The notes beneath the pieces are model-generated. The model saw only the letters and a program-made list of their open reading frames with translations, searched no databases and had not been told where the DNA came from. Shown here one piece after another: positions 24,213 to 34,997 of a stretch of 64,000 bases of DNA. The stretch covers positions 1,240,001 through 1,304,000 of the forward strand of contig NZ_CP031015.1 in NCBI RefSeq assembly GCF_003850245.1, given 5' to 3'. Position numbers and translations under genes: made by a program. This DNA comes from Microbacterium sp. ABRD28 (lineage in GTDB: Bacteria > Actinomycetota > Actinomycetes > Actinomycetales > Microbacteriaceae). Position 1 is the first letter of the stretch. Each line of letters begins with the position of its first letter.

Positions 24213-24249
24213 GGCGAGTCCTCTCCTGACGGGTGCCGTCGCGACGCGG

Positions 24250-24255
24250 TAGCGT
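24250..24255 (+). promoter_or_regulatory. -10 box TAGCGT of the repair polymerase gene
   Basis: Seven nt before the ATG at 24263, no ribosome-binding site: leaderless start. It supports 24263 over the in-frame start at 24233. Confidence 0.5.
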
Positions 24256-24262
24256 CGCCTGC

Positions 24263-25297
24263 ATGGCGAGCCCGTTCACGATGCTGACCGTTCCCGGGCC
24301 CGCGGGCGACCGCGAGGTGCGCCTGTCGAACCCCGACCGGGTGCTGTGGCCGGCGCTCGGGATCACCAAGCGCGAGCTCGCCGAGTACCTCATGGCGGTG
24401 TCGGGTCCGTTCCTCGCCGCGAACGGCAACCGGCCGGTGTCGCTCGAACGGTTCCCCGAATCGGTGGAGGGGGAGCGGTTCTACTCCAAGAACCCGCCGA
24501 AGGGCACGCCCGACTACGTCGAAGCGGTGACCGTGCGGTACAACAGCGGGCGGCGGCATCCGCAGATCGTGCTGACCGAACCTGCGGCCGTCGTGTGGGC
24601 GGCCCAGATGAACACGATCGTGTTCCACCCCTGGGCGTCGCTGACGAGCAATACCGACAACCCTGTCGAGCTGCGGATCGACCTCGATCCGCAGCCGGGC
24701 ACCGACTTCGCCGATGCCGCCGCGGTCGCGCCCGCCCTGCGTGACGTGCTCGCCGAGGCGGGGCTGACGGCGTTCCTGAAGACGAGCGGCAATCGCGGCA
24801 TCCATGTGTTCTGCCCCATCGAGCCCGAGTGGGAGTTCCTCGACGTGCGGCACGCCGTCATCGCCGCCGGACGGGAGCTCGAGCGCCGGATGCCCGACCG
24901 CGTGACGACGAACTGGTGGAAGGAAGAGCGCGGCGAGCGCATCTTCATCGACTTCAACCAGGCCAACCGCGACCGCACGATGGCGGGGGCCTACAGCCCG
25001 CGGGCGCTCGCGGGCGCGACCGTCTCGACGCCGATCACGTGGGATGAACTCGCGCGTGTCGACCCCGCGGCCTTCACGGTGCGTTCGGTGCCGGCGCGGC
25101 TGGCCTCGGTCGGAGACCCGTGGCAGGGGATGCTCGAGACGCCGGGGCGCATCGACGTGCTGCTGGAGTGGTGGCAGCGCGACCTCGACGACGGGCTCGG
25201 CGAGCTGCCGTTCCCGCCCGACTTCCCGAAGATGCCGGGCGAGCCGCCCCGCGTTCAGCCCAGCCGCAAGAATCCGGAGAACTGGCCGAAGGAGTAG
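24263..25297 (+). CDS. LigD-type primase-polymerase (non-homologous end joining/repair)
   Basis: A 344-residue stand-alone polymerase domain of the LigD/PolD group (archaeo-eukaryotic primase superfamily). The catalytic pair is Asp140 and Asp142 in RIDLDPQPG. Other family motifs are FLKTSGNRGIHVFCPI and the third metal ligand region RIFIDFNQANRDRTMAGAYSPR. The N-terminus NPDRVLWPALGITKRELAEYL is typical. Such enzymes fill gaps at breaks, preferring ribonucleotides. In many actinobacteria the gene neighbours a LigC-type ligase; here the ligase comes 8.6 kb later, beyond a regulatory/lipoprotein block. No ku gene in the window. Confidence 0.93.
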   Translation: MASPFTMLTVPGPAGDREVRLSNPDRVLWPALGITKRELAEYLMAVSGPFLAANGNRPVSLERFPESVEGERFYSKNPPKGTPDYVEAVTVRYNSGRRHPQIVLTEPAAVVWAAQMNTIVFHPWASLTSNTDNPVELRIDLDPQPGTDFADAAAVAPALRDVLAEAGLTAFLKTSGNRGIHVFCPIEPEWEFLDVRHAVIAAGRELERRMPDRVTTNWWKEERGERIFIDFNQANRDRTMAGAYSPRALAGATVSTPITWDELARVDPAAFTVRSVPARLASVGDPWQGMLETPGRIDVLLEWWQRDLDDGLGELPFPPDFPKMPGEPPRVQPSRKNPENWPKE

Positions 25298-25363
25298 CGC
25301 GGTTCGTTCCCCGGCGAAGGGACGGATGCCGCGGCGCGCCTCGTGTCGAGCTTTTCCCGTTCG

Positions 25364-25403
25364 CCTGTCGCAAACGGCCCGCGTGGCCGCTCTTTGTGAC
25401 AGG
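25364..25403. repeat. Hairpin-forming inverted repeat
   Basis: CCTGTCGCAAA (25364-25374) faces TTTGTGACAGG (25393-25403) with one mismatch. CGGCC/GGCCG extends the stem inward past a 3-nt bulge to a 5-nt loop. Lies 66 nt after the polymerase gene; probable terminator or intergenic palindrome. Confidence 0.55.
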
Positions 25404-25492
25404 TGGCTCGCGCGCGGGGCTCCCGGCACGGGATGCCGCAGCGCGAGGTCGCGCGGTGTGCTCCTCAAACGGGAGCGGTTACCCTGCTTCCC

Positions 25493-25620
25493 CCGTCACG
25501 TTCGGCCCTGCCAGCGCGCGAAGCGGGGCGGATGTTGCCGGGGGAGCATGGGGCGCCCGGCTTCCTCCGTCACGTTGGCCCTGCCAGCGCGCGAAGCGGG
25601 GCGGATGTTGCCGGGGGAGC
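25493..25620. repeat. Near-identical direct repeat, two ~55-nt copies
   Basis: Copies at 25493-25547 (55 nt) and 25567-25620 (54 nt) differ only by one deleted base; start to start is 74 nt. Within the 447-nt gap between the polymerase and lipoprotein genes. No coding frame or known family recognised. The similarity implies a recent duplication. Confidence 0.8.
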
Positions 25621-25636
25621 GGATGTCGGGCGGAAC

Positions 25637-25697
25637 ATTGCACGAAGATTGCGCGGCGCAGAGCGCGCCGAAAACCGCGCAACGGTCCTCATAGCGT
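25637..25697 (+). promoter_or_regulatory. Promoter with two 11-nt-period ATTGCRCG repeats
   Basis: ATTGCACG (25637-25644) and ATTGCGCG (25648-25655) are direct repeats 11 nt apart, one helical turn. The second starts exactly 44 nt before a -10 box TAGCGT (25692-25697). Direct repeats on one DNA face are the binding mode of SARP regulators, two of which are encoded at 28148-33762. The lipoprotein mRNA then has a leader of about 40 nt with ribosome-binding site GAGGGGGA. Confidence 0.65.
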
Positions 25698-25744
25698 CGG
25701 CGCGTGCCGGATGATCCGGCACCACGGACCGAGGGGGACCACCC

Positions 25745-26329
25745 ATGCACACCACACCCGCACCCGCATCCGCCCACGCGCCGGAAGCGTCGACTCCGCT
25801 GCAGCGCCGATTGGCGGCCGCCGCCGCAGCGGGGCTGCTCGCCGCCGTCACGCTCACCGGCTGCACCTTCACACTCGGCGCCTCCGGCGCCGAACCCGGC
25901 GCAACCGAGCCGGCCGCCACAACGACGACCGACCCCGACCCCGACGTCACCGACCCCGGCGGCACCCGCCCGGCGGGCGGCGACGCGGGATTCGTCGAGA
26001 CCGAGGCCGGTGCGATCGCGCTCTTTCAAGACCGCTGGTACGACAACTTCTGCTCCAGCGTCAACATCGCGATGGGCGACGAGAACTGCGTCGGCATCGC
26101 GATCGAGGCCCTCGAGATGATCGACGGCGCGGCCGACCGCGCCACCGCTGCCGGTGCCGACGATGAGCTCGTCACCGCGGCGACCGCGGCAGAAGACGCC
26201 GCCGCCGCGTTCCGCGCCGCCGAGTGCGACATCTCCACCTCAGACACCTGCGTCGGCCCGACCGACGACTTCACCGACGCGGTGCGCGCGTACGGCGACG
26301 AACTCACCGAGAGGCTGGCCGCGCAATGA
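25745..26329 (+). CDS. Putative secreted lipoprotein, unknown function
   Basis: A 194-residue protein. An extended N-terminus ends in a type II signal peptide, LAAAAAAGLLAAVTLTGC, with the lipid-modified Cys near residue 40. A Thr/Pro/Asp-rich linker (residues 50-80) follows, then a small helical domain with four Cys (NFCSSV, ENCVGIA, AECDIS, DTCVG), suited to two disulfides outside the cell. No known family recognised. It is separated by 92 nt from the protease gene, whose promoter has the same repeat architecture, so the two are probably co-regulated but separately transcribed. Confidence 0.8.
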   Translation: MHTTPAPASAHAPEASTPLQRRLAAAAAAGLLAAVTLTGCTFTLGASGAEPGATEPAATTTTDPDPDVTDPGGTRPAGGDAGFVETEAGAIALFQDRWYDNFCSSVNIAMGDENCVGIAIEALEMIDGAADRATAAGADDELVTAATAAEDAAAAFRAAECDISTSDTCVGPTDDFTDAVRAYGDELTERLAAQ

Positions 26330-26353
26330 ATGCCGCGCGCTCTGCAAGGTCGG

Positions 26354-26414
26354 ATTGCACGAACATTGCACGCCCGAAACGGCTCGCTCCGGCATCCGAT
26401 CCCGTCCGTAGCTT
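26354..26414 (+). promoter_or_regulatory. Second promoter with two 11-nt-period ATTGCACG repeats
   Basis: ATTGCACG at 26354-26361 and again at 26365-26372 (11 nt apart). The second repeat starts 44 nt before the -10 box TAGCTT (26409-26414), the same distance as in the lipoprotein promoter. The ATG at 26422 is 7 nt after the -10 box, so the protease mRNA is likely leaderless. Confidence 0.68.
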
Positions 26415-26421
26415 CGGCGAC

Positions 26422-28008
26422 ATGAACACCACCGCACCTTCTCGTCGCACTCGCTCACGGCTTCTGCCGGCCGGTGCGGCCATGCTCACGACGACCGCTC
26501 TGGCCCTCACCGGGTGCATGAGCTTCGTCACTCCCGAAGCCGCCCAGCCTGCGGGCGTCGGCTTCGACGACATCCAGACCGCGACCATCCAGATCGAGGC
26601 CGTCGGTACCTTCGTCTCGCCCGAGATGGGCGGCTACGAGGCCGCCGGCCGCGGTTCGGGCTTCCTCATCAGCGAAGACGGCCTCGCCGTGACCAACAAC
26701 CACGTGGTCGTCGGCGCCGGCACGCTGAAGGTCTGGCGCGGCGGCGACACGAGCGAGACGCTGAACGCCAAGGTGCTCGGGTCGTCGGAGTGTCTCGACC
26801 TCGCGGTCATCCAGCTGCAGGAGGACGAATACCCGCACTTCACCTGGCGTGAGGGCGAGATCACCACCGCGACCGACGTCTACGCCGCCGGCTTCCCGCT
26901 CGGCGATCCCGAGTTCACCATGACCCGCGGCATCGTGTCGAAGGCCGACACCGCCGTCGACACTCCCTGGGCCTCACTCGACCACGTGATCGAGCACGAC
27001 GCCCGCATCCGCGGCGGCAACTCCGGCGGGCCCCTCATCGACAGTGAAGGGCGCCTGGTCGGCGTGAACTACGCCGGCAACGACCAGTACGACCAGAACC
27101 TCGCCATCCACCGCGACGAGGTGCAGAAGGTCATCGAGCAGCTGAGCGAGGGCGAGAGCGTGCTGAGCCTCGGTATCAACGGCACCGCCCTCATGACCGA
27201 GGAGGGCGAGGGGCTCGGCATCTGGGTCAACTCCGTCGCCTCGGGGTCGGCGGCCGATACCGCCGGCGTCGCGCCCGGCGACCTCCTCACAAAGATGGAG
27301 GGCGTCTCGGTGGGCGTCGACGGCACCATGGCCGACTACTGCGACGTGCTGCGCACACACGGCCATGACGCCACGCTGTCGGTGGAGCTGTACCGCCCTG
27401 CCGAGGGCGTCTACTACACCGGGCAGTTCAACGGCGAGCCCGTTGAAGCGGTCTCGGTGGCCACGCAGGCCGGCGCCGGCTCGGGCGGCGGGGGAACCGG
27501 CGGGTCCGGCGGTTCGGGAGCCGTCTCGGCCGAGGAGTACGTCTCGATCGTGGATGACACGGGAAGCGTCACGGTCGATGTGCCGGCCGCCTGGGGCGAC
27601 CTCGACACCTCGGTCTACACCGACCCGCGCGGCGGGCAGTGGGCGCGCATCGATGCCAGCACGGATGTCGCGGCGTTCGCATCGGGCTGGTCGGTGCCGG
27701 GTGTCTCGGTGGTCGCGGCTCCCGCGGATACGGCGACGATCCAGCCCGAGGAGTGGCTGGGCATGACCGCCGACTACCTGGAGCAGTCGGGGTGCTCGCA
27801 GGGCGCCATCGACGAGTACACCGACGACCTCCACACCGGGGTCTTCCAGTACTGGACCGGATGCGGCGAATCCGCAGCCGACTATCTGATGCTCGCCGCC
27901 TACTCCAACGACGGACAGTACGTCATCGTGCTCGCGGTCACCGCCCTGACGGAGAACGACCTCTACGCGATCGATCACGCCCTGGGTAGCTTCGCCGCTG
28001 CCTTCTGA
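26422..28008 (+). CDS. Lipid-anchored trypsin-like serine protease with PDZ domain
   Basis: A 528-residue protein. The lipoprotein signal ends at LALTGC (Cys32). The S1/HtrA-type catalytic triad is His94 (LAVTNNHVV), Asp126 (ECLDLAVIQL) and Ser201 (IRGGNSGGPL). A PDZ-like segment follows (about residues 255-330; IWVNSVASGSAADTAGVAPGDLLTKMEGVSV), then a Gly/Ser linker (about 353-372) and a C-terminal domain of about 150 residues (VSIVDDTGSVTVDVPAAWGDL...) with two Cys, reminiscent of PsbP/Mog1-like folds. It should act on the outer face of the membrane. A strong hairpin terminator follows. Co-regulation with the preceding lipoprotein is indicated by matching promoters. Confidence 0.92.
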   Translation: MNTTAPSRRTRSRLLPAGAAMLTTTALALTGCMSFVTPEAAQPAGVGFDDIQTATIQIEAVGTFVSPEMGGYEAAGRGSGFLISEDGLAVTNNHVVVGAGTLKVWRGGDTSETLNAKVLGSSECLDLAVIQLQEDEYPHFTWREGEITTATDVYAAGFPLGDPEFTMTRGIVSKADTAVDTPWASLDHVIEHDARIRGGNSGGPLIDSEGRLVGVNYAGNDQYDQNLAIHRDEVQKVIEQLSEGESVLSLGINGTALMTEEGEGLGIWVNSVASGSAADTAGVAPGDLLTKMEGVSVGVDGTMADYCDVLRTHGHDATLSVELYRPAEGVYYTGQFNGEPVEAVSVATQAGAGSGGGGTGGSGGSGAVSAEEYVSIVDDTGSVTVDVPAAWGDLDTSVYTDPRGGQWARIDASTDVAAFASGWSVPGVSVVAAPADTATIQPEEWLGMTADYLEQSGCSQGAIDEYTDDLHTGVFQYWTGCGESAADYLMLAAYSNDGQYVIVLAVTALTENDLYAIDHALGSFAAAF

Positions 28009-28012
28009 AATC

Positions 28013-28044
28013 GTGGGGCCCCGACCGCCGGGTCGGGGCCCCAC
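28013..28044 (+). terminator. Strong hairpin terminator after protease gene
   Basis: Perfect 14-bp stem GTGGGGCCCCGACC / GGTCGGGGCCCCAC with a 4-nt loop, starting 5 nt after the stop codon. No T-run follows, which is usual for GC-rich actinobacteria. Confidence 0.85.
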
Positions 28045-28147
28045 CGCACGACAGGATTGCACCACAATGGCAACGGAATCATCACTGACGGCCCCCGCTC
28101 CGGTCACCGGCGCGGGGACGACGCGCTTCGCCGAGGGGGGAGTGAGC

Positions 28148-30943
28148 GTGACGGTGGACGTGCGCTTACTGGGCCTGGTCGAGGTGCGCGTGGACGACGG
28201 GGTCGTCGCGCTGCGGGGCGACATCCCCAAAGCCCTCGTTTCGCGGCTGGCACTCAGCGCGGGTGACATCGTCTCGGCGGAGGAGCTGATCGCGGATGTC
28301 TGGCCGCAGCCTCCCGCGAACGTCCTCTCGACCCTGCGGGCCCACCTCTCGCGACTGCGGGCCGCAGGCCTTGGTGCGCACCTCGTCGGGGCACGCGGGG
28401 GATACTCCCTCGATGTGCCCGCCGACCGGGTCGACCTTCTGCGGCTGCGGGCCGAGCTCGCCGCAGCCACCCGCCTCCCGGCGTCGGAGGAACGTCTGGC
28501 CGCCCTCGGTGAGATCGCCGCGCGCGCGGCGCGCGACCCGCTCCCGGGACTCGACGCCATCCCGTTCGTCGCCGCCGTGCGCGCCCGTCACCTCGCCGAT
28601 CGGCGCGTGCTCGAAGAAGACCTCGGCGAGCAGGCCCTCGACCTCGGCGACACCGCCCTGGCGACCTCGGTGCTCGCCGGGACGGCGCAGCGACACCCGT
28701 TCGACGAGCGGCCCGTACGCCTCCTCGCCACGGCGCTCTCGCGCTCCGCGCGCATCCCCGACGCCCTCACCGCGATCGACGCGTTCACCACGCGCCTGCA
28801 GGACGAGAGAGGCGTGGATCCGTCGGCCCGGCTGCAGGCGCTTCGGGCATCGATCGTGCGGGTGGATCCCGAGGTCGTCACGCACCGCACCGGTGCGGCC
28901 GTGCGACGGGTGGGCGTCGGCATCCCGCTCACCCGCTTCGTCGGACGCGCCGACGATCTCGCACGCCTCCGGGAGCGCCGCCGCGACCGCCGCCTCATCA
29001 CGATCGTCGGCCCCGCCGGGGTCGGGAAGACCCGCACCGCCGTCGAACTCGCCCGTGAGGCCACAACCGCCCTCGACGACGAGCAGTACATGGTCGACCT
29101 CGCCGACTTCCGTCAGCCTGACGAGGTGGTCGCGGCGATCGCGGCGGTCGTGAGGGCGCGGGAGCTGACGATGGATGCCATCGTCCGACGTCTCCGCTCC
29201 GGCCGCATCCTGCTGCTCCTCGACAACGCCGACCACGTGCTCGGCGCGCTCGCCGTCGCGGTCGACCGGCTGCTGCAGGGCACGGAAGGGGTGCGTATCG
29301 TCGTGACCAGCCGCGAGCCGCTGCGACTGTCGGGCGAGGAGGTCGTGGTGCTCCGCCCTCTCGTCGGTGACGCCCACGCCGACGCCTGGCGGCTCTTCGC
29401 CGAGCGTGCCGCCGACGCGCGCGGCGGTTACGGTTTCGATGACGGCGAGCTCGACGAAGCGCGCGCCCTCTGCGCGGAACTCGAGGGCATCCCCCTCGCG
29501 CTCGAACTCGCCGCGGCGCGGCTCGATGTGCTCGACGCCGCGCAGGTGCGTGAGGGGATCGGCGCGCACGCCTCGCCCCGAGGGCGACACGACAGCGTCC
29601 GCACCGCGATCGACTGGACGTTCGGGCAGCTGAGCGAGCCGCAGCGCGAACTGCTGCAAGAGACCTCGAGATTCGCCGGTGCCTTCACCGTCGGGGCGGT
29701 CTCCGGAGCATCCGGCCGGCCCTGGGCCGACACCGTCACCCTCCTCGATGAGCTTGTCGGCAAGTCCCTCCTCGCCGTCGAGCGCGGCAGCACCGGTCGG
29801 CGTCGATTCCGCATGCTGGAGTCGACCCGCGAGTACCTCACCGAGCGTGAGGACCCGGCACGGGCGGCGATGTGGCGGCTGCGGTACCGGTGGTGGTTCG
29901 CCGACCTCACGACCACGCTGGGCCCGACGCTGCGCACGTTCGAGGCCCGCGACAGCATGGCGGTGCTCGACGACTTCCGCGCCGACCTCACCGAGGCGTT
30001 CGAGACGGCGGTGCTGGCCGGCGATCGCGACGCCGCCGTTCGGCTGGCGGCTGGACAGGCGCAGTACTGGTTCCTCCGCGGCCTGATGGTCGAGGGCCGC
30101 AGCCGCCTGGAGCGGGCCCTCGAGCTGCCGGGCGATGCCACCTCGCTCGACGGGATCGCGTGGCTGGAGCTGGCGAATCTCGCCTACCAGACCGGCGACG
30201 CCGCGGCGGGCTTCGGCGCCATCGCGCGGGCGCGGGGCGAGGGGGAACGGCTCGCCGATCCGTCGGTGACCGCGGTGGCGCTGGCACGCGAGGCGTACGG
30301 CCGGGCGATCTTCGGTCAGGCCGACCTGGGCGAGAATCTCCTCGCGCAGGCGCAGCACCTCACCGGCGAGGCTCAGGCCTGGGCGCGGGCCGAGGTGCAC
30401 ATGTCCGAGGGCCAGATCCGGCGGGCGCAGGGGAGGACGGATGACGCGCTGCAGGCGCTCCGCTCCTCGTACCGGATCGCGGCGTCGATCGGCTACACGT
30501 GGATGATCACGACCTCGAAGTACGTCACGGCGAAGACCCTCGTCGACGCGCGCCGGCCGAAGGAGGCCATCGACGTCGCGGTGGGGGCGGTGGAGGAGGC
30601 ACGCGCGAACGAGGACGCCGCCGGTGCGTTGGCGGTGGTGTTCGTCATCGCGGGGGCGTGCGCCTTCGTCGAGCGCCACGAGATCGGGGTGCGGCTGCTC
30701 GGTGCCGTCGAGGAGATCGGGCGGCAGTACGACTACAGCACCGCCGCCGTCGAGGGAGAGGATGCCGCGCGTCTGCGCGCGTCGCTCAGCGTCGGGATGA
30801 CCCCGACCGAGTTCGCGCATCAGTACGAGCAGGGCCGGCGATGCGGTTGGCCCGACGTGCGCGAGATGCTCGCGCGCCTTCCGCGTCGGGAGTTCTCGAT
30901 GGCTGCGGACCCGTCACGCGCCGACACGGACGCGTCGCCGTGA
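28148..30943 (+). CDS. AfsR/SARP-family regulator with STAND NTPase (first of pair)
   Basis: About 931 residues. The N-terminal winged helix is OmpR/SARP-like (VRLLGLVEVRVDDGVVALRGDIPKALVSRLAL...LSTLRAHLSRLRAAGL), followed by a bacterial transcriptional activation domain (about residues 95-245). Then comes an NB-ARC/STAND ATPase with P-loop GPAGVGKT near 288-295, LLLLDNADHVLGAL (Walker B), TSREPLRLSGEEVVVL and ELEGIPLALELAAARLDVL, and a helical TPR-like C-terminal half. GTG 28148 has a strong GGGGGGAG site; an ATG at 28067 in the same frame is an alternative. Overlaps the next regulator by GTGA. Probably activates the lipoprotein and protease promoters upstream (inference). Confidence 0.9.
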   Translation: MTVDVRLLGLVEVRVDDGVVALRGDIPKALVSRLALSAGDIVSAEELIADVWPQPPANVLSTLRAHLSRLRAAGLGAHLVGARGGYSLDVPADRVDLLRLRAELAAATRLPASEERLAALGEIAARAARDPLPGLDAIPFVAAVRARHLADRRVLEEDLGEQALDLGDTALATSVLAGTAQRHPFDERPVRLLATALSRSARIPDALTAIDAFTTRLQDERGVDPSARLQALRASIVRVDPEVVTHRTGAAVRRVGVGIPLTRFVGRADDLARLRERRRDRRLITIVGPAGVGKTRTAVELAREATTALDDEQYMVDLADFRQPDEVVAAIAAVVRARELTMDAIVRRLRSGRILLLLDNADHVLGALAVAVDRLLQGTEGVRIVVTSREPLRLSGEEVVVLRPLVGDAHADAWRLFAERAADARGGYGFDDGELDEARALCAELEGIPLALELAAARLDVLDAAQVREGIGAHASPRGRHDSVRTAIDWTFGQLSEPQRELLQETSRFAGAFTVGAVSGASGRPWADTVTLLDELVGKSLLAVERGSTGRRRFRMLESTREYLTEREDPARAAMWRLRYRWWFADLTTTLGPTLRTFEARDSMAVLDDFRADLTEAFETAVLAGDRDAAVRLAAGQAQYWFLRGLMVEGRSRLERALELPGDATSLDGIAWLELANLAYQTGDAAAGFGAIARARGEGERLADPSVTAVALAREAYGRAIFGQADLGENLLAQAQHLTGEAQAWARAEVHMSEGQIRRAQGRTDDALQALRSSYRIAASIGYTWMITTSKYVTAKTLVDARRPKEAIDVAVGAVEEARANEDAAGALAVVFVIAGACAFVERHEIGVRLLGAVEEIGRQYDYSTAAVEGEDAARLRASLSVGMTPTEFAHQYEQGRRCGWPDVREMLARLPRREFSMAADPSRADTDASP

Positions 30944-33762
30944 CCGCCGTGCGGATCCACCTGTTCGGGGGGCTTCGGGTGACCGGCGAGGGGGCACCAC
31001 CGCCGGTGCGCGGTGCGATCCCCGAGGCTATCCTCTGCCGTCTCGCCCTCGACCCGGAGCGGTTGTTCACGACCGGCGAGCTCGTCGATGCGCTCTGGCC
31101 CGCGGCGTCCGACAGCGTCGTGTCGAGCCTGCGCGCCCACCTGTCCCGGTTGCGGACGCGGGGATGGGGCGAGCTGCTGCCCGGCGGGCGCGGAGGATAC
31201 CGCCTGGCGGTCGCCCCCGAGGCGGTCGACGTGATCCGGTATCGGCGGCTGCTCGGGGCCGACGGCACCCGGTCGGATGACCCCTCGGCGCGCGCGGCGG
31301 CGCTCGCCGAGGCCGAGGCGCTCTGGACCGGGACGCCGCTTGCGCGCGTGATCGAGTTTCCGTTCGCGCCGCCGGTGATCGCCGAGCTCGGGATGCTGCG
31401 GCGCGCCGCCGCTGCCGAGCGCGCCGATCTGGAGACGGCCGCTTCGCGGCCGGCGGCGGCCCTCGCCGCGCTCGCGCCCTGGGCGGACGACCTCGAGGAC
31501 GACGAGGTGGGTGTGCGGCTCGCCGGGGCGCTCGCCGAGGCAGGGCGCATCGCCGACGCGCTCGCCGAGGTGGACCGCCGTGTCGCGCATCGGCGCCGTG
31601 CCGGGGCGACGGTGCCGGAGGCATGGGCGCGACTGCGCGATCGCATCGCCCGTGGGGAGGACGGGCGCGCGGGCGTCCCTGGTACGGGCGGTGGCGCAGG
31701 CGGCGTCGCGACGGGTCAGTCCGCTGCAGGGGCCGCGGCCGGCCCGGGTGCCGACGCATCGGGCGGTCCCTCGCGGCGGCCTCGCGATCTGATCGGGCGC
31801 GCGGCCGAACTCGATCGCATCGCCGACGCGCGGGCGCAGTCGCGGCTCGTGACCCTGACCGGGCCGGCCGGAGTCGGCAAGACACGCCTTGCCGCCGAGG
31901 TCGCGCGCCGCGGGTCGGGCACCGACGACGACGCGCAGTGGTTCGTCGACCTCACCGTCATCCGCTCTCCCGACCGCCTGATGGGGGCGGTCGCCGAGAC
32001 CCTCGGCTGCGCGAGCGAGATCGACGGGATCGCGGCGGCGCTCGGCGGTCGGCGGACGCTCGTCGTGTTCGACAACGCCGAGCACGTCCTCGGCGCGACG
32101 GCCGCGCTCGCTGCCGCGCTGCTCGAGCGCTGCGCAGGGCTCGGCGTGCTCGTGACGAGCCGTGAAGCGATGCGGATGGCGGGGGAGCGGGTCGTGACCG
32201 TCGAACCGCTCCTCGGCGGGGCGCTGGATGACGCGGTCGAACTCTTCCTCCAGCGTGCGGGAGAGAGCAGCGGGATGACGGGATGGACCGCCGATGACCG
32301 CGATGCCGTGCGACGCCTGTGCGTCGCGCTCGACGGGCTCCCGCTGGCGATCGAGCTCGCCGCCGCGCGACTGGACGTGCTGAGCCTCGAAGAAGTCGCC
32401 GGTTCGTTGGAGGCTCTCGGGCCGCAGGGGAGCGGCGCGGGCCGGCACGATTCGCTCGACGCCGCGATCGACTGGAGCGTCGGCATGATCTCCGATGACG
32501 AGCGAAGCACCCTCGGTCAGCTGGCGCGCTTCTCCGGACCGTTCGGGCTCGATGCCGTGGCCGGCATCTGCCGAGTCGAAGGGGCCGATCCCCGCGAGTC
32601 CACCATCGCCCTCGTTCGTCGCTCGCTCGTCGTCCCCGCCGGGTCGGGCGGAGGGGAGCGCCGGTTCCGGCTGCTCGACACCGTCCGCCGCTACGCCCGG
32701 TCGCACCTGCAGACCGAGAGTGACATCGAGTGGGACGTGCGGCACGGGCGCTGGATGGCCGACTACGCCGGTCGGACGGCGCCGCTCCTGCGCTCGGCGT
32801 CGGCGTCGAAGGCGCGAGCGTCGTTGCGTGGCTATGCGGCTGATCTGCAGGATGCCACGGCCCGTGCCATCCGCTCGGGGGATCGCGCCCTGGCGGTCGA
32901 GCTCGTCGGGTCGCTGGCGTGGTTCTGGTACGAGCGCGGGCAGGCGGACGAGGCGCTCAACCTCATCGATCAGGCGCTCGCCGTACCCGGACCGCGCCTC
33001 TCAGGACCCGAGGCGCGCGCGCTGTATGCCGCGACCTTCATGCAGGCTGTGGGAGGAGACCCGCTCGGGACCGTGCACGCACTCCGGCGCTTCGCCGAGG
33101 CCGCCGATGCCGCCGCCGACCCGGCGCACGCGATGATCGCGCACACCCTGCTCGGCTCGCTCGCTGCCGTCGAGGGCAACATCGACACGCGGCAGGCCGA
33201 GCTCGCGATCGCCGAGCGATGGCGCGCCGAGGTCGGAGAAGGCGACCGGTGGGCGATCGCGGACCACCTCTATATCCGGGGTGATGCGCTGCGGATCGCC
33301 GGACACCCGGCGCAGGCGCTCGACAGCCTCGAGGAGGGCTACCGCCTGGCCGCCGAGATCGGTCACACGTGGACGCTTGCGGCGTCGTGCTACATCACGG
33401 GCAAGGTGCTGACCGAGGTCGGACGGCCGCGTGATGCGGTGGGGATCCTCCGCACCGGTGCCGGCCACTCCCTCGCCCGTGAAGACCGGATCAGCGCGCT
33501 CGCCGCGGTCAACGCGATCGCGGTGGCGCTGGGGGAGCTCGGGGCGTTCGAAGATGCCGGGGAGCTCTTCGGCCTGGTCGACGCGCTCGGGCCGCGCTTC
33601 GGGTTCCACCCCGTGGCGTCGGACGGGTCGTACGCCGAGCCGTTCCGCGCGCGTGCCGCCGCTGCACTCGGCGCGGCGTGGGATGCGGCGCGCGCCCGCG
33701 GCGCCGCGCGCGACGTCGCGTGGGCGCTCGAGCGCGCAGCCGCGGTCGCCGCTCGCGTCTGA
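30940..33762 (+). CDS. AfsR/SARP-family regulator with STAND NTPase (second of pair)
   Basis: A 940-residue paralogue of the preceding protein with the same domain order. Winged helix VRIHLFGGLRVTGEGAPPPVRGAIPEAILCRLALDPERLF..., BTAD-like region, a Gly/Ala linker near 245-280, NB-ARC with P-loop GPAGVGKT at about 308-315, TLVVFDNAEHVLGA, TSREAMRMAGERVV and ALDGLPLAIELAAARLDVL, then TPR-like helices to the end. The GTG start overlaps the previous stop (GTGA), so the pair is translationally coupled and could act as a heteromer. The BTAD segment is shorter and more degenerate than in its partner. Ligand and target are unknown. Confidence 0.9.
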   Translation: MTAVRIHLFGGLRVTGEGAPPPVRGAIPEAILCRLALDPERLFTTGELVDALWPAASDSVVSSLRAHLSRLRTRGWGELLPGGRGGYRLAVAPEAVDVIRYRRLLGADGTRSDDPSARAAALAEAEALWTGTPLARVIEFPFAPPVIAELGMLRRAAAAERADLETAASRPAAALAALAPWADDLEDDEVGVRLAGALAEAGRIADALAEVDRRVAHRRRAGATVPEAWARLRDRIARGEDGRAGVPGTGGGAGGVATGQSAAGAAAGPGADASGGPSRRPRDLIGRAAELDRIADARAQSRLVTLTGPAGVGKTRLAAEVARRGSGTDDDAQWFVDLTVIRSPDRLMGAVAETLGCASEIDGIAAALGGRRTLVVFDNAEHVLGATAALAAALLERCAGLGVLVTSREAMRMAGERVVTVEPLLGGALDDAVELFLQRAGESSGMTGWTADDRDAVRRLCVALDGLPLAIELAAARLDVLSLEEVAGSLEALGPQGSGAGRHDSLDAAIDWSVGMISDDERSTLGQLARFSGPFGLDAVAGICRVEGADPRESTIALVRRSLVVPAGSGGGERRFRLLDTVRRYARSHLQTESDIEWDVRHGRWMADYAGRTAPLLRSASASKARASLRGYAADLQDATARAIRSGDRALAVELVGSLAWFWYERGQADEALNLIDQALAVPGPRLSGPEARALYAATFMQAVGGDPLGTVHALRRFAEAADAAADPAHAMIAHTLLGSLAAVEGNIDTRQAELAIAERWRAEVGEGDRWAIADHLYIRGDALRIAGHPAQALDSLEEGYRLAAEIGHTWTLAASCYITGKVLTEVGRPRDAVGILRTGAGHSLAREDRISALAAVNAIAVALGELGAFEDAGELFGLVDALGPRFGFHPVASDGSYAEPFRARAAAALGAAWDAARARGAARDVAWALERAAAVAARV

Positions 33763-33935: not shown

Positions 33936-34997
33936 ATGGACCTTCCCGTCATGCCCCCGGTCGCGCCGATGCTCGCCAAATCGGTCGCGGCGATCCCCGA
34001 CCTCGGGCATGTCGAGCCGAAATGGGACGGGTTCCGCACGATCGTGTTCCGCGATGGCGACGAGGTCGAACTCGGAAGCCGCAACGAACGGCCGATGACG
34101 CGGTACTTCCCCGAGCTCGTCGAGGCCCTGCGCGCTCAGCTCCCCGAGCGCTGCGTCGTCGACGGAGAGATCGTCGTCGCCACCGACGGCGGCCTGGATT
34201 TCGAGGCGCTGCAGCAGCGCATCCACCCCGCGGCGAGCCGGGTGAACCTGCTCGCCGCCCAGACGCCGGCGTCGTTCATCGCCTTCGACCTGCTCGCGCT
34301 CGGCGACGACGACCTCACCGGCCGTCCGTTCGCCGAGCGTCGCGCCCTTCTGGTCGAGGCGCTCTCGGGCGTCGAGCCGCCGATCTACGTCACGCCCGCG
34401 ACCGGCGATCCCGCCGTCGCGCAGGAGTGGTTCGAGACCTTCGAAGGCGCGGGCTTGGATGGCGTGATCGCCAAACCCCTCGACGGTCCGTATCAGCCCA
34501 ACAAGCGCACGATGTTCAAGATCAAGCACGAGCGCACCGCCGACTGCGTGGTCGCGGGATTCCGCTGGCACAAGTCGGGGCCGATCGTCGGCTCACTCCT
34601 CCTGGGCCTTTACGGCGACGACGGCACCCTGCACCACGTCGGGGTGACGGCATCCTTCCCGATGGCTCGAAGGAAGACCCTGCTCGACGATCTCGCGCCC
34701 TACCGCGACGTCGACCTCTCCGCCCACCCCTGGGGCGGCTGGGCCGAGCACGCCGGTGACGGCGGCCGGCTCGCGGGCGCGGGCAGCCGGTGGAACGCCG
34801 GCAAGGACCTCTCCTTCGAGCCGCTGCGCCCCGAGCTCGTGGTCGAGGTCGCGTACGACCACATGGAGGGCGAGCGTTTTCGCCACATCCCGTCGTTCCG
34901 ACGCTGGCGCCCCGACCGCGACCCGCGCTCGTGCACCTTCGCGCAACTGGAGGTGCCGGCGAGCTTCACGCTGTCCGACATCCTGCCCGGACTTTGA
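33936..34997 (+). CDS. ATP-dependent DNA ligase, LigC/LigD-ligase type
   Basis: A 353-residue ligase. Adenylated Lys29 is in EPKWDGFR (motif I), then SRNERPMTRYFPEL, motif III VVDGEIVVA, motif IIIa FIAFDLLALGDDDL, motif IV GLDGVIAKPLDGPYQ and motif V TMFKIKHERTADCVVAGFRW, followed by an OB-fold domain. It seals nicks in repair or end joining together with a LigD-type polymerase, such as that at 24263. The ATG at 33936 is preceded by GAGACT with a 6-nt gap, a variant of the leaderless -10 box. It converges with the AI-2E transporter gene; the 44-nt spacer shows nothing special. Confidence 0.93.
   Translation: MDLPVMPPVAPMLAKSVAAIPDLGHVEPKWDGFRTIVFRDGDEVELGSRNERPMTRYFPELVEALRAQLPERCVVDGEIVVATDGGLDFEALQQRIHPAASRVNLLAAQTPASFIAFDLLALGDDDLTGRPFAERRALLVEALSGVEPPIYVTPATGDPAVAQEWFETFEGAGLDGVIAKPLDGPYQPNKRTMFKIKHERTADCVVAGFRWHKSGPIVGSLLLGLYGDDGTLHHVGVTASFPMARRKTLLDDLAPYRDVDLSAHPWGGWAEHAGDGGRLAGAGSRWNAGKDLSFEPLRPELVVEVAYDHMEGERFRHIPSFRRWRPDRDPRSCTFAQLEVPASFTLSDILPGL

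Follow-up and report, generated by a model that had tools for sequence, protein, structure and literature searches.

In published descriptions, SARPs are antibiotic activators that lie over the -35 region and adapt sigma, a placement on which the AfsR structures rest. In SARP promoters, the 3' repeat stands 8 bp from the -10 element and overlaps the -35, and -29.5 is given as the centre of the afs box (PMC10936776). The SARP-LAL protein PimR was called unprecedented for leaving the -35 untouched (PMC3367932).

The window considered here, i.e. the whole 64,000-nucleotide stretch of Microbacterium sp. ABRD28 that was analysed, holds two promoters for which a sequence-only reading had claimed a SARP-like geometry. 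The 11-nt period of their repeats bears this out, whereas the gap of 36 bp instead of 8 bp and the lack of overlap with a -35 depart from it. A regulon built on such promoters appears real, and the adjoining twin BTAD-STAND (AfsR-like) proteins are most likely what drives it. With a strict and different spacing kept in dozens of promoters, it could be tested whether the SARP DNA-binding module also works as a class I activator. The sites further provide large AfsR-like regulators outside Streptomyces with a working DNA code, and suggest a testable function (surface protease, lipoproteins) for a regulator class with mostly unknown signals. No description of this promoter type was found in the literature searched, which left most subscription journals outside its scope and is no proof of novelty.

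The two promoters of the window

The locus is flanked by a LigD polymerase gene (24233-25297) and a LigD ligase gene (33936-34997), between which a lipoprotein, a lipoprotein protease and two large regulators are encoded (Table 1). LigD polymerase and ligase are here separate genes on either side of the regulon; the ligase adjoining regulator 2 is encoded on the opposite strand in G152 and G321.

Table 1. Positions of the promoter elements and genes of the locus in the window
Feature	Position	Strand	Description
Promoter 1, candidate activator site	25637-25655	+	direct repeats ATTGCACG 25637-25644 and ATTGCGCG 25648-25655, period 11
Promoter 1, -10 element TAGCGT	25692-25697	+	first base 44 nt from start of repeat 2
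Small lipoprotein, 194 aa	25745-26329	+	lipobox LTGC, four-Cys helical domain
Promoter 2, candidate activator site	26354-26372	+	direct repeats ATTGCACG 26354-26361 and ATTGCACG 26365-26372, period 11
Promoter 2, -10 element TAGCTT	26409-26414	+	44 nt from start of repeat 2
Lipoprotein serine protease, HtrA/DegP-like	26422-28008	+	Trypsin_2, PDZ and C-terminal PsbP/LpqN-like domain (about 373-528)
Perfect 14-bp RNA hairpin, protease/regulator intergenic	28013-28044	+	no T run
Single ATTGCACC half site ahead of regulator 1	28056-28063	+	probable relic
Regulator 1	28067-30943	+	winged-helix DNA-binding domain, BTAD, STAND-type NTPase and C-terminal region
Regulator 2, regulator 1 paralogue	30940-33762	+	same architecture

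As had been read from the letters, each promoter carries two ATTGCRCG repeats with an 11-nt period, one pair before the lipoprotein gene and one before the protease gene. Both pairs, ATTGCACG-AAG-ATTGCGCG (25637-25655) and ATTGCACG-AAC-ATTGCACG (26354-26372), are exact. From the first base of the second repeat (25648 and 26365) to that of the TAGCNT element (TAGCGT at 25692, TAGCTT at 26409), the distance is exactly 44 nt in both, leaving 36 bp between the end of the 8-mer and the -10. With at most two mismatches allowed, two repeat pairs are found in the window against 0.11 expected, a number reached in none of 100 shuffles, and these two are the only exact pairs of the 3.27-Mb window genome. 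This common layout of repeats and -10 is far beyond chance. A sigma-70 scan of positions 25300-28300 found no promoter.

The lipoprotein promoter is directly preceded by a 73-bp tandem duplication (25482-25620) with an identical 44-bp core, which is compatible with the repeats being a recent duplication or a mobile repeat devoid of regulatory meaning. Such an origin is extremely unlikely. Indeed, the sequence between repeats and -10 is dissimilar in the two promoters while the spacing is equal, the layout is common to 27 promoters less than 75% identical and is also found at unlinked places in G386, and its conservation across genera speaks against it.

The lipoprotein promoter pair is conserved at the orthologues of G271, G149 and G051 (distance 44; first repeat GTTGCACG in G051) and of G152 (distance 43), and the promoter 1 -10 is equally placed in the lipoprotein orthologues. 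Pairs at a distance of 44 also precede the protease orthologues of G051, G271, G149, G321, G152 and G047. The repeat pair was thus found upstream of orthologues in relatives, where its absence would by the sequence-only reading have been a refutation, and the recurrence of the layout there upholds its view of two co-regulated promoters. The lipoprotein starts 47 nt after its -10 (G000) and the protease transcript is probably leaderless, since the ATG (26422) lies 7 nt past the -10. Beyond these two promoters, 26 further sites with one or two mismatches were found in the window genome, none of them with a -10 at 43-45; its 28 degenerate matches are no excess over the 24 of a reversed control. 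The regulon of the window genome may consist of these two promoters alone.

The single ATTGCACC at 28056-28063 had also been pointed out as a half site before the regulator operon. It is present, but looks degenerate and lacks both a partner repeat and a -10 at 44. Rather than a working site, it is probably the degenerate remnant of an autoregulatory promoter seen in G047, G152 and G321, a relic status which is only a likelihood because that region aligns poorly. The adjacent hairpin at 28013-28044 (z of -4.85 for a 71-nt stretch) is a possible attenuator or end-stabilising hairpin.

Spacing and distribution of the repeat pairs

The pattern ATTGCACGNNNRTTGCR, i.e. the pair alone with the -10 ignored, was searched in 366 genomes of the genus and returned 29 sites in 24 genomes. 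Two sites whose first 55 bases are identical to those of another site were dropped. Among the 27 distinct sites, TANNNT stands at 44 in 12 and at 43 in one, and nowhere else over 15-120; the binomial P on this spacing treats related sites as independent and is indicative only. Eight of the 24 genomes have TANNNT at 43-44 (G000, G051, G047, G149, G152, G267, G271, G321), and twin regulators occur in seven of these eight. Seven others (G001, G060, G066, G083, G235, G258, G259) represent a second type, which has a single regulator together with a divergent alpha/beta hydrolase, repeats reading ATTGCACGAACGTTGCA (ATTGCACGATCGTTGCA in G235), and (C/G)AG(G/T)CT rather than TANNNT as the -10 at 43-44. 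The remaining nine display neither kind of -10, and no regulator-1 homologue (E<=1e-60) was found in the ten bare-pattern genomes that these nine form with G069.

A relaxed set of 61 pairs was composed of all 59 RTTGCR-N5-RTTGCR pairs of 12 genomes, picked after sites had already been seen in most of them, and of two pairs from G051. The 59 pairs of the 12 genomes compare with 16 in the reversed control. TANNNT lies at 44 in 29 of the 61 pairs, at 45 in four, at 43 in three and at 42 in one, and once at each of five other distances; the 24 pairs without TANNNT at 42-46 are about the chance expectation. Over 37 loci (587 kb), period 11 was found in 42 pairs and any other period of 7-23 in at most two, and the combination of period 11 with distance 44 occurred 27 times, the next combination twice.

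In an alignment of 27 non-redundant promoters (less than 75% identical), a C stands two bases ahead of TA in 23 and the fourth base of the -10 is C (TANC) in 24, neither feature being imposed by the search. No -35 consensus was found, as no column from 17 to 52 (position 52 being three bases before TA) exceeds 19 of 27. This bears on a canonical SARP arrangement, in which the regulator dimer would, like AfsR at afsS, lie over the -35 and bridge sigma region 4, the upstream pair being accessory. The protein family and the 11-bp period are the same, and the protease promoters of G152 (L168, about 6608) and G321 (L169, about 96) contain a third (A/G)TTGCACG 12 nt before the -10, close to the position of a canonical SARP site. 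However, none of the columns that separate the pair from position 52 is common to more than 19 of the 27 promoters, and between the end of the last repeat and the -10 there are 36 bp, not 8 bp (PMC10936776), which makes this arrangement quite improbable.

The sign of regulation is not readable from sequence alone, so that regulators sitting on the upstream repeats could also hold the promoters off. Nevertheless, a rigidly kept distance and helical phase relative to the -10, together with the missing -35, are activator traits that a repressor would not need, and SARPs are described as activators (PMC10936776, PMC10972967). Repression is therefore judged very unlikely.

A table of 50 sites, selected for a -10 at 43-45, served as a basis for targets and not for statistics. 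At 27 of these sites, a frame of 100 or more codons starts 6-8 nt past the -10, two spurious calls being excluded, and leaderless transcripts look common among the regulon promoters.

The 44-nt spacing is kept where the repeat sequence drifts. Thus, G110 and G290 carry GTTGCAGC-GGC-GTTAACCG, G005 carries GTTGTCGC-AAG-GTTGTCGC and G132 carries GTTAGCCC-AAA-GTTGCACG, all at 44. The regulators of these four genomes have RVYVSRLR or RVYITRLR as recognition helix, whereas it reads RAHxSRLR or RAYMSRLR in the ATTGCACG species; the comparison covers the RVYxS/TRLR and RAxxSRLR genomes of the genus. Counted on the alignment, R92 of AfsR corresponds to the Arg of SRLR in regulator 1, and T88 to the variable second residue.

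OmpR/PhoB-type response regulators also use 11-bp direct repeats, and another OmpR-type or similar regulator (e.g. PhoP-like) might bind the repeats, the AfsR-like twins being mere neighbours. PhoP and AfsR sites overlap at afsS (PMC10972967), and G267 has a site and no detected regulator-1 homologue at E<=1e-60, only weak pieces being found in its fragmented assembly of 640 contigs. That site (L172, 5203) is perfect and lies ahead of a DUF4870 gene. Such a regulator is nonetheless improbable: a widely present one would not explain why the sites largely track the regulator-1 clade, sites sit before regulator 1 itself in seven genomes, and the drift of the repeats goes together with the change of the recognition helix.

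Among 299 sampled genomes of the family, 13 encode regulator-1 homologues (E<=1e-60), in eight of 85 genera with the own genus counted. At least three genera besides Microbacterium (g69, g22 and g12) show the same layout with the relaxed repeat RTTGCR, placed before orthologous proteases, lipoproteins and DUF4870 genes and before the genes of the regulators themselves. In four of the eight genera (g24, g33, g56 and g59; one genome each), no standard RTTGCR pair was found at 44. The G471 protease is preceded by the diverged GTAATCAC-GGC-GTTAACGC at 44 from TACCGT, and the DUF4870 gene of G628 by diverged repeats at 45. A palindrome-like ATCCCAGATTC-TGGGA, which is not a repeat pair, stands before the regulator in G388 (L201, upstream of 6176) and G471 (L205, upstream of 6721). 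In G386, sites precede the protease gene and an exported DUF2207 gene at distances of roughly 480 and 700 kb from the regulators of this genome, which points to action in trans. The small dedicated regulon tied to the twins, as first proposed, is hence backed by co-occurrence and by the sites at orthologues, but it is wider in relatives than had been stated.

Protease orthologues were found at 21 loci in 20 of the 366 genomes. At 11 loci (G000, G051, G271, G149, G321, G152, G047, G290, G110, G132, G005), a site precedes the protease or an operon ending in it. None of the other ten has a site within 1.5 kb, the upstream region in G019, where the protease start was not located, being judged by site scans. 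In six of the ten, stretches of 15-16 kb each contain no regulator-1 or -2 homologue. G001, which belongs to these site-less loci, has a second-type regulator elsewhere. In the protease upstream regions of G187 (L125) and G001 (L130), neither of which has these regulators nearby, GAGCACYGCAAG occurs with its first base 22 nt ahead of a TANNNT, perhaps reflecting a different control. A self-similar repeat of another sequence at 44 in G187 lies about 3 kb from the protease and was judged a chance match.

A scan of a collection of 84,980 species gave 37 stretches, the actinobacterial ones being two Microbacterium contigs only; this collection may omit records very near the window genome, and the pattern is too strict for the relaxed sites of other genera. 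The matches elsewhere (Bacteroidota, Mesorhizobium, Acidobacteria and others) were put down to chance, this pattern not being a rare one where genomes are richer in AT. When repeats of any sequence (7/8 identical, period 11) before TANNNT were sought at 27 loci (L011-L037), none was found at 43-45. Of these loci, 19 (L019-L037) encode more remote relatives of the regulators, for some of which the match lies outside the DNA-binding domain only. The remaining eight (G132, G005, G110, G085 and four single-regulator loci) have sites that this test would not register, being too far away, too diverged or combined with another -10. The layout is consequently at least not general to BTAD-STAND genes.

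Regulators and target genes

Two SARP/AfsR-like regulators had been announced immediately downstream, and both indeed combine a BTAD with an AAA/NB-ARC-type NTPase. The BTAD scores 41.7 bits in regulator 1 and 27.4 bits in regulator 2 (cut-off 22.1), and the NTPase matches AAA_22 in regulator 1 (36.7 bits, cut-off 27) and NB-ARC in regulator 2 (24.1 bits, cut-off 23.5). Trans_reg_C reaches 23.5 bits in regulator 1, below the cut-off of 26.2, and is not listed for regulator 2. No TPR family was reported in either regulator at E 0.001; a below-cut-off match of regulator 2 to a TPR protein model spans residues 279-495, which is the NTPase region. Regulator 1 aligns with AfsR over residues 34-584, DNA-binding domain included (E 7e-19), and with EmbR (PDB 2fez) through the DNA-binding domain (E 3e-12). 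Against the AfsR equivalog NF053617 (NCBIfam), for which regulator 2 is unlisted, regulator 1 scores 91.5 bits with a cut-off of 1430 and is therefore AfsR-like but not AfsR.

The two regulators share 36% identity across the NTPase and C-terminal part. In a tree that did not include the single-regulator proteins of G060, G258 and G259, which were short pieces only, they form separate clades, co-present in all seven twin genomes; G085, whose branch is long and weak, was not drawn on as evidence. The start of regulator 1 may be ATG 28067 or GTG 28142/28148, and regulator 2 begins within the end of regulator 1, start and stop forming a 4-nt overlap (GTGA).

In the protease, Trypsin_2 (100 bits) is followed by PDZ_6 (36.9 bits), both above cut-off, and H94, D126 and S201, assigned as the triad from motifs, are invariant in 11 of 11 aligned proteins. 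It scores 132.6 bits for NCBIfam degP_htrA_DO, short of the cut-off of 416.2, and is thus HtrA-like outside that named subfamily. A fold search found residues 373-528 to resemble PsbP, LpqN and MTC28; the C-terminal domain alone was used, the model being poor in the protease part (mean pLDDT 61). Characterised HtrAs are not known to combine the protease with a C-terminal PsbP/LpqN-like domain. The lipoprotein matches no Pfam or NCBIfam family. Its residues 79-194 are confidently predicted as a helical domain, for which no PDB match with E < 0.001 was found.

The four-Cys lipoprotein is also a target in G386, G433 and G634 (28-29% identity). DUF4870 genes are targets in G132, G267 and G594, in G047 as the second gene past the site and in G005 at the GTTGTCGC site; in G132 and G005 they adjoin a DUF4190 gene. 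Other targets are a hemerythrin in G047 and an alpha/beta hydrolase in G433 and in the second type; G386 adds a DUF2207 protein and an Ig-like surface protein whose neighbour resembles it. A site also precedes regulator 1 in seven genomes (G047, G152, G321, G433, G496, G594, G634), some of these promoters having one degenerate repeat. As the targets are export and surface proteins, an envelope or protein-export stress response is the most likely role of the regulon.

Proposed mechanism and comparison with described systems

It is quite probable that these promoters form a multi-genus regulon whose activator is the neighbouring AfsR-like twins, or a single homologue in other species, acting in a class I manner from about -57. 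The activator would be the large AfsR-like pair (SARP domain and STAND NTPase), two winged-helix domains of which would bind side by side on one face of the DNA at RTTGCRNN direct repeats with an 11-bp period. Its site would be centred near -57 if +1 is at 26421-26422. As there is no -35 element, RNA polymerase would be recruited or held by the activator, most likely via the alpha-CTD, and would open a (T/C)C-N-TANCNT -10 element. From this upstream, phase-locked position, the recruiting SARP dimer would perhaps be a heterodimer of the twins; in some species, the paired ancient paralogues could each occupy one repeat. The output would be mainly exported or membrane proteins, i.e. the HtrA-like protease, the four-Cys lipoprotein and the DUF4870/DUF4190 proteins, together with regulator 1. 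Positive feedback on regulator 1 is suggested by its own site in the seven related genomes, and in the window it might result from transcripts that start at the protease promoter and continue through the 28013-28044 hairpin.

More broadly, these promoters may constitute a distinct class of SARP promoters, with STAND activators at a fixed -57, a 36-bp gap, no -35, class I activation, an envelope/export-stress regulon and often leaderless transcripts, in several genera of the family. This wider proposal is put forward tentatively, our judgement leaning slightly against it.

The DNA-binding and BTAD core of regulator 1 is shared with EmbR of Mycobacterium tuberculosis (PDB 2fez), in which an FHA domain stands behind this core (PMC10936776) instead of the STAND NTPase of the window regulators. 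A parallel for an HtrA-like protease within a dedicated stress response appears to be the CssRS/CutRS secretion-stress control of Streptomyces (PMC12802291). The window protease differs from HtrA/DegP in being a lipoprotein with a C-terminal PsbP/LpqN-like domain, and its proposed controller would be a cytosolic AfsR-like pair, whereas CssRS/CutRS is a two-component system.

PimR, acting at pimM in Streptomyces natalensis, shares the SARP domain and an ATPase-type region with the window regulators (PMC3367932, PMC5930380). It recognises heptameric repeats of 11 bp clear of the -35, and class I activation was proposed by the authors (PMC3367932). PimR differs by its one target promoter, with three repeats (CGGCAAG) and a protected region 93 nt from the transcript start, and the accessible parts of PMC3367932 and PMC5930380 report no rigid spacing over many promoters.

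AfsR of Streptomyces coelicolor at afsS (PMC10936776; PDB 8hvr, 8jke, 8k60) has the SARP domain, BTAD and NTPase in common with the window regulators and likewise uses two 11-bp direct repeats, the first 8 bp of each being contacted. Its contact residue R92 is present in both window regulators (by alignment for regulator 1, by motif for regulator 2), whereas T88 is Ala in both by the same count. The afs box overlaps the -35 and is occupied by AfsR touching sigma region 4, whereas the window sites lie at about -57 with a 36-bp gap and no -35. Finally, AfsR is involved in antibiotic control, whereas the targets in the window are surface and membrane proteins.
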